39,495 nt of DNA from the NCBI GenBank assembly GCA_013003155.1, contig JABDKF010000038.1, positions 1 to 39,495 on the forward strand, read 5' to 3'. Under the pieces are notes generated by a model, which did no database searches, had not been told where the DNA came from, and saw only the letters and a list, made by a program, of their open reading frames with translations. Every line of letters starts with the position of its first letter. The first letter of the stretch is position 1. A program made the translations under genes and the position numbers. Positions 28,146 through 29,231 of the stretch are shown in pieces. Source of the stretch: Woeseia sp. GTDB taxonomy: Bacteria; Pseudomonadota; Gammaproteobacteria; Steroidobacterales; Woeseiaceae.

Positions 28146-29231
28146 TTACTGGCCGAGGCAGACGCCCGCGTAGGCCATCGTCTTGCCGGCATTCTTCAAC
28201 CGGCAGTCGTTATCGTAGGTGTTGCCGTCAAGTCCACACACCGGCTGGTAAGTGCGCGGACAGTTTGCGCCCTGCTCCTCGCAAAGCCCCGCGTGTTTGA
28301 TCCGCACGCCCGCGCGCTCTGCCTGGCAGGCGTTGCCGTAGGTCAATTCGTTTGAGCCGCAAACCGGAACGTACAGCCGCGGGCAGGGACGCACACCACA
28401 GGCGCCTTCGCTAAAAGTGCTGACGCCAGCGCCTTCCGCCTTGCAAGCGTTGTCGTAGGTCGCGCCATCATCACCACACACCGGGGAAATAATCGCCGGG
28501 CAGTCCTGCGGGTCGCAGGCGCCCTCCCGCTGCACCGGAATCCGCTCCTGTTCCGCCTCGCAGCGATTGCGATAACTGCGCGCATTGGTGCCGCAGACCG
28601 GTTCAAAAATATCGGGGCAACCACTTTCTGAACATGCGCCCAACGCGGCGATAGCAATTTCAGCGGCGCTGGCGAGGCAGGCATTGTTATACGTTACGCC
28701 GTCTTCGCCGCAGACCGGCACGAACTCGTCATCGCAGCCGTCCTCGCCTACCTCACACAATCCGGAGAACTCGACCTCTACGCCGGACGCGCTGGCAAAA
28801 CAGGCGTTGCTGTAGGTGTTGCCATCGGCTCCGCAAACGGGTGCGAATTCCTCACCGCAAGCGGCCGCTTTTTCACACAGCCCGATCGTGGCAACCTCCA
28901 CGCCGGCCGCCTCTGCAACGCAGGCATTCCCATAGGTCTTGCCGTCAGCACCGCAGACAGGCTCGAAGCGCTCGCCGCATTCATTGGCAGAGTATTGACT
29001 GCACTCGCCGAAACCGACGATGTCAACGCCCGCCGCGGCCGCCACGCAATCGTTGCTGTAAGTCTTGCCATCGATCCCGCAAACGGGGTCGTACTGCATC
29101 GTGCACGCAGTGTCGCCCAACGCCTCTGTGGTCGCCTCACCCTTGGAACCCTGCGCCGCCACGGCGGCGGCGAGCAGCAACAGTGCTGATGCGGTTATAG
29201 CGCGGGATAAGAAAATTCTTGTTCGACTCAC
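28146..29231 (-). CDS. Secreted protein with eight tandem Kazal-like domains
   Basis: Signal peptide ([17 protein letters not shown]) then eight units of C-x7-CG-x4-[TS]Y-x3-C-x(~14)-C; each unit contains PVCG; 32 domain cysteines. GTG start. Confidence 0.9.
   Translation of the reverse strand: [361 protein letters not shown]

Follow-up and report, generated by a model that had tools for sequence, protein, structure and literature searches.

A single gene in Woeseia sp. encodes a predicted secreted protein whose mature part consists of eight tandem Kazal units with four cysteines apiece, and a 5- to 8-copy version of this array is an inherited trait of the family Woeseiaceae, found at the same chromosomal place wherever that place is assembled. 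Each ingredient has a precedent, namely Kazal units with four cysteines, Kazal domains in tandem, and Kazal domains in bacteria; what is new is an array of five to eight units, all of them with four cysteines, kept at one locus across a bacterial family, a combination unreported in the open-access literature that we searched. The reading that we favor, with a probability of about 0.6, is that the array acts as a secreted multiheaded canonical inhibitor of serine proteases (families S8 and S1) that would shield the envelope or exoproteins of a proteolytic heterotroph.

The gene and its product

The gene lies on the reverse strand of the window, by which we mean the whole 39,495-nucleotide stretch of DNA that was analyzed. 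The eight units were placed by a six-frame search with the Kazal_1 profile together with an alignment.

28146-29231, reverse strand: Kazal-array gene, 361 amino acids, GTG start (ORF call and Pfam)
29154-29231, reverse strand: N-terminal signal peptide, residues 1 to 26, cleavage near AVAA/QG (by eye), no lipobox cysteine
29001-29105, reverse strand: Kazal unit 1, P1 Met (CTM/QYDPVC)
28875-28979, reverse strand: Kazal unit 2, P1 Glu
28755-28859, reverse strand: Kazal unit 3, P1 Glu
28632-28736, reverse strand: Kazal unit 4, P1 Asp
28515-28619, reverse strand: Kazal unit 5, P1 Asp, opening the conserved C-terminal four-unit module
28398-28502, reverse strand: Kazal unit 6, P1 Ala
28281-28385, reverse strand: Kazal unit 7, P1 Arg
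28158-28262, reverse strand: Kazal unit 8, P1 Arg

In a Pfam search, Kazal_1 (PF00050) matched the protein in eight separate stretches (E value of 1.8e-66, 220 bits) and Kazal_2 matched it with an E value of 2.9e-49; in a six-frame search of the genome, each of the eight units singly exceeded the curated Kazal_1 cutoff of 21 bits, and no other Kazal gene was present, making this a single-copy gene. An earlier note, made from the sequence alone, had described a signal peptide followed by eight back-to-back Kazal-like units with four cysteines each, and this description holds in all its parts. The signal peptide, modeled as a helix over residues 5 to 24, is common to every orthologue (by eye), and export via Sec is predicted. 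The mature part is made of eight 35-residue units joined by linkers of 4 to 7 residues, and the chain ends three residues past the last cysteine.

Between the window gene and its nearest relative, dN was 0.20, like that of the neighboring housekeeping genes (0.22 for CtpA and 0.21 for GpsA; dS was saturated), which indicates purifying selection. A chance or spurious ORF is therefore ruled out by the Pfam match and by family-wide orthologues that have the same layout under purifying selection. Most of the window units best match their positional counterparts in other genera, so the array is old and has not been homogenized, and its architecture persists through a fall in GC content from about 60% to 35% in a small-genome genus. 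A recent repeat expansion or an assembly artifact can also be set aside, given that the units are 31 to 71% identical to one another, match positional counterparts, and belong to a single-copy gene.

Cysteine pattern and reactive-site loops

Classical Kazal domains, small protease-inhibitor domains familiar chiefly from animals, have six cysteines, forming disulfides I-V, II-IV, and III-VI. In the window protein, every unit instead follows the pattern CII-x7-CIII-x10-CIV-x14-CVI, so that the 32 cysteines of the protein all lie within units; CII, CIII, CIV, and CVI are present and CI and CV are absent in 8/8. Since CI and CV are mutual partners in the classical I-V bridge, one whole disulfide is gone and no cysteine is left unpaired, which identifies the canonical bridge that the earlier note had thought missing from every unit. 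Bridges II-IV and III-VI are predicted for the array units from a spacing (7/10/14) identical to that of the four-cysteine inhibitor GmSPI-2. One unit of an orthologue (L048:7130-7924, genome G035) has jointly exchanged CII for Phe and CIV for Tyr while keeping CIII and CVI, and this natural one-disulfide unit supports the pairing of CII with CIV. In an AT-rich genus (g5, GC of about 35%; loci L053, L054, L056, L057, L059, and L060), fewer than 10 residues separate CIII from CIV in another unit, the second- or third-to-last.

The canonical inhibitory loop, CII-x7-CIII with a supporting Asn near CIV, is found in each of the eight window units. Among the orthologues, the positions that support the loop are largely conserved (Cys at P3, Thr or Pro at P2, Tyr or Phe at P2', the Pro-Val-Cys segment, and the Asn two residues before CIV), and P1 and P1' vary, with entropies of 1.8 to 2.9 bits. 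P1 of unit 1 is Met in 20/33 orthologues, that of the last unit is Arg in 19/33, and that of the fifth-from-last unit is acidic in 27/33; the remaining units are mixed, and in the middle units P1/P1' are consistently acidic (Asp/Glu-Asp/Glu). The variability of P1 is high, yet not clearly above that of other exposed positions, so it is consistent with target-driven change without amounting to proof of it.

Predicted structure and known relatives

An AlphaFold (AF2) model of the full chain, built on an alignment of 33 orthologues, had a mean pLDDT of 86.3 and a pTM of 0.56, with most of units 5 to 8 at about 92 to 98 pLDDT. The beta-beta-alpha-beta motif of the Kazal fold was modeled in every unit. 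Foldseek searches against the PDB matched true inhibitors: GmSPI-2 (4hgu; target TM-score of 0.86, rmsd of 1.3 A, 54% identity), the leech tryptase inhibitor LDTI (1an1; TM-score of 0.89), and domain 1 of CrSPI-1 (3pis; 0.3 A over 29 residues). Structure prediction, which the earlier note had proposed as a check on the Kazal assignment, thus agrees with it, and a sequence search of PDB chains returned the same set of structures. When the whole chain was used, multidomain follistatin complexes came first by E value, but with TM-scores of only 0.13.

Tandem inhibitors of animals, among them rhodniin (PDB 1tbq) and ovomucoid, resemble the array in being secreted chains with more than one Kazal head, but their units, unlike those of the array, have six cysteines; ovoinhibitor and LEKTI are longer animal chains of this kind. 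In follistatin/agrin-type modules, a Kazal-like domain follows an EGF-like part and the module has ten cysteines; the array, with four cysteines per unit and none between units, does not belong to this type. Bacterial single-Kazal proteins (e.g., L079, L097, L098, and L103) resemble the array in being secreted or lipoprotein-like and in having a very similar unit, but they are small proteins with one unit, often with extra cysteines, and occur sporadically at different loci.

The closest known counterpart of a single unit is silk proteinase inhibitor 2 of Galleria mellonella (GmSPI-2; PDB 4hgu and 2m5x), which has the same four cysteines, the same spacing, and the same fold as modeled here. 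It differs in being a single insect domain with Thr at P1 and a proven inhibitor, active against subtilisin and proteinase K, and its II-IV and III-VI disulfides (Cys5-Cys24 and Cys13-Cys39, its only cysteines) are seen in a solved structure (PMC4169406). Domain 1 of horseshoe crab CrSPI-1 (PDB 3pis and 3qtl) is likewise a four-cysteine Kazal domain without the I-V bridge and stands in tandem, but CrSPI-1 has just two domains, of which the second has three disulfides, and the spacing in domain 1 is 7/10/15. Structures of GmSPI-2 and of CrSPI-1 domain 1 have been solved, so Kazal domains with four cysteines belong to a known class: the earlier note was right that it departs from the classical six cysteines, but the form in itself is not new. 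Phytophthora EPI1 also has a two-disulfide, four-cysteine Kazal domain that inhibits subtilisins (PMC1236909); that domain is without Cys III and VI, whereas the array units are without Cys I and V. A search of the open-access literature for bacterial Kazal arrays, or for Kazal together with Woeseia, found nothing relevant.

Distribution across genomes

Across the order, the Kazal_1 profile matched 61/65 Woeseiaceae genomes, nearly all with five to eight matches, and a single time in one of the 181 genomes of other families. A protein search of relatives gave the same picture (34/37 genomes of the family, 0/23 from other families of the order). Elsewhere, matches were found in 12/298 other genomes of a Pseudomonadota sample, one or two times each, and in 10/248 genomes of the phylum of a Bacteroidota hit, where most are single small proteins; this corresponds to about 4% of genomes in the two groups, mostly with one or two matches each. 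The earlier note had suspected that such an architecture is uncommon in bacteria, and outside the family these counts agree. In a search of contigs from one genome per species, the sole match was one distant Bacteroidota locus, and a search of plasmids gave merely weak, partial matches in Sinorhizobium/Shinella.

Four genomes of the family were without a Kazal match (G016, G243, G247, and G251). A contig break precedes the Kazal position in G016, G243, and G251, and a search of G247 for orthologues of CtpA, EnvC, SecB, and GpsA found none; each absence thus falls where the assembly is broken or a region is missing, true gene loss is not supported, and no clear loss was seen.

Several individual loci deserve mention. 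One unit of L097, from the Bacteroidota-phylum sample, is strikingly close to window unit 1. A Bacteroidota metagenome-assembled genome (G557; L094/L095) has a 1422-amino-acid ORF in which several Kazal units are scattered, some of them near identical to one another. Two relatives have a second Kazal locus: in one it is an ORF of 149 amino acids with one unit (G008:C2:41765-41887), in the other a partial array at a contig edge (G004:C107:2-661), which may be a strain variant or contamination.

The locus and the origin of the array

The Kazal gene follows a co-directional run of envelope genes and converges with an ATPase gene.

31416-32702, reverse strand: EnvC-like M23 protein, head of the co-directional run (PF01551, E value of 2.1e-25)
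30090-31325, reverse strand: CtpA-type S41 C-terminal processing peptidase, syntenic family-wide (PF03572, E value of 6.8e-53)
29288-30259, reverse strand: YibQ-like divergent polysaccharide deacetylase, 57 bp upstream of the Kazal gene (PF04748, E value of 3.7e-71); the true start is probably inside the called ORF
25737-28139, forward strand: HerA/DUF87-type ATPase, convergent with the Kazal gene (the two ORFs end 6 bp apart)
23826-25649, forward strand: Peptidase_M2, a complete bacterial homologue of angiotensin-converting enzyme (E value of 1.7e-213)

In all relatives with enough sequence, the Kazal gene is downstream of and co-directional with envC-ctpA(-yibQ), and this run diverges from rhodanese-grx-secB-gpsA. 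The HerA-like gene is kept beside the locus in many, not all, relatives; its upstream neighbor, the Peptidase_M2 gene, has a lipoprotein-like signal and does not accompany the locus in every relative. Between yibQ and the Kazal gene, some genera have an ORF that looks by eye like a SAM methyltransferase, and L061 has a NUDIX-like one; inspection by eye did not mark either as an obvious partner of the Kazal gene. In the small-genome genus g5, yibQ was undetected and the methyltransferase-like and Kazal genes are retained. Sister families have the envC-ctpA block, mostly with yibQ, followed by other genes and no Kazal gene, which suggests that the Kazal gene was added next to an existing block, most likely in the ancestor of the Woeseiaceae.

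Proposed function and alternatives

As a Kazal serine protease inhibitor (MEROPS I1), the array would be a Sec-exported protein bearing eight GmSPI-2-type domains in a row, each offering a canonical reactive-site loop that disulfides II-IV and III-VI would hold in place. Such a loop would enter the active site of a serine protease of the chymotrypsin or subtilisin fold and block it as a tight, barely cleavable mimic of a substrate. Because the eight loops differ in P1 (Met, Glu, Glu, Asp, Asp, Ala, Arg, and Arg), one molecule could trap proteases of several specificities. What would be protected is the envelope or the secreted proteins of a sediment heterotroph, and the S8/S1 attackers could be the cell's own peptidases or those of competitors or predators; protection from own or foreign proteases, which the earlier note had raised, is plausible and is the role that we favor. 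The genome itself has five S8, five S1, and three secretin matches, and W. oceani is reported to degrade protein with peptidases of families S1, S8, and M28, the S1/S8 enzymes having trypsin and chymotrypsin activity (PMC7082342). The acidic P1/P1' of the middle units speaks against an inhibitor, as it suits few serine proteases, but an acidic P1 can work: domain 2 of CrSPI-1, with Glu at P1, inhibits subtilisin with a Ki of 2.5 nM (PMC3082530). In the same study, domain 1, with its two bridges, did not inhibit subtilisin alone (PMC3082530), so that loss of a disulfide may weaken inhibition.

The main alternative, which we consider unlikely, is a noninhibitory array that would serve as a structural or ligand-binding protein of the envelope or surface, in the fashion of follistatin and agrin, whose Kazal-like arrays are, to our knowledge, not protease inhibitors. 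The acidic P1 of the middle units would fit such a protein, as would the C-terminal units, in which near-fixed linkers (4, 4, and 6 residues, the number of N-terminal units varying among orthologues) and numerous unit-specific residues conserved beyond the loops (as in NRCEAExxRxPVQR and AERxGxRIxHAGLC) suggest a rigid surface with a partner of its own. The follistatin complexes that lead the whole-chain Foldseek ranking point in the same direction, at the low TM-scores given above; however, follistatin and agrin units have more cysteines and EGF-like parts that the array does not have, single units best match the true inhibitors GmSPI-2 and LDTI, and the architecture of the canonical loop is retained.

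The constant position after envC-ctpA(-yibQ) wherever the locus is assembled, with a gap of 57 bp in the window, could also indicate a dedicated partner or regulator of the CtpA/EnvC envelope machinery, such as a protein that inhibits the S41 peptidase or serves it as an adaptor, and the adjacency persists even where yibQ is lost and a methyltransferase intervenes. We regard this as improbable: the envC-ctpA-yibQ block occurs without a Kazal gene in sister families, the intervening genes differ (methyltransferase and NUDIX), and we know of no Kazal targets among S41 Ser/Lys peptidases. Vertical inheritance alone would account for the fixed position, which therefore lends weak support to a functional link with CtpA. 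Least probable of all is a defense aimed specifically at the digestive proteases of eukaryotic grazers or at those of bacterial predators and not at the cell's own exoenzymes, for although a multiheaded protein with basic P1 residues in its last two units would suit trypsin-like enzymes, the case is one of ecological plausibility, the P1 residues are of mixed kinds, and small-genome relatives retain the gene with other P1 residues.

Implications for the Woeseiaceae

The main genomic study of the group, which includes the closed 4.1-Mb genome of W. oceani XK5, gives no account of matches to peptidase inhibitors (PMC7082342); that the gene has so far gone unremarked may reflect such hits having been set aside there. 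Genome sizes in the family are given as 3.1 Mb for sediment members and 1.7 Mb for pelagic ones (PMC12175321).

Viewed as a molecule, the array is a natural multiheaded set of what are predicted to be minimal two-disulfide inhibitor domains with differing P1 residues. For the family as a whole, we tentatively propose, at somewhat less than even odds, that the ancestor of the Woeseiaceae acquired a four-cysteine Kazal array and that the array has since stayed at a single place in its descendants, where it would act constitutively as a shield against a broad range of extracellular serine proteases. The Woeseiaceae rank with the most abundant bacteria in marine sediments and have been described as degrading protein; if the proposal is true, a family-wide protease inhibitor would bear on how these bacteria live amid extracellular proteases and on the control of protein turnover in sediments.
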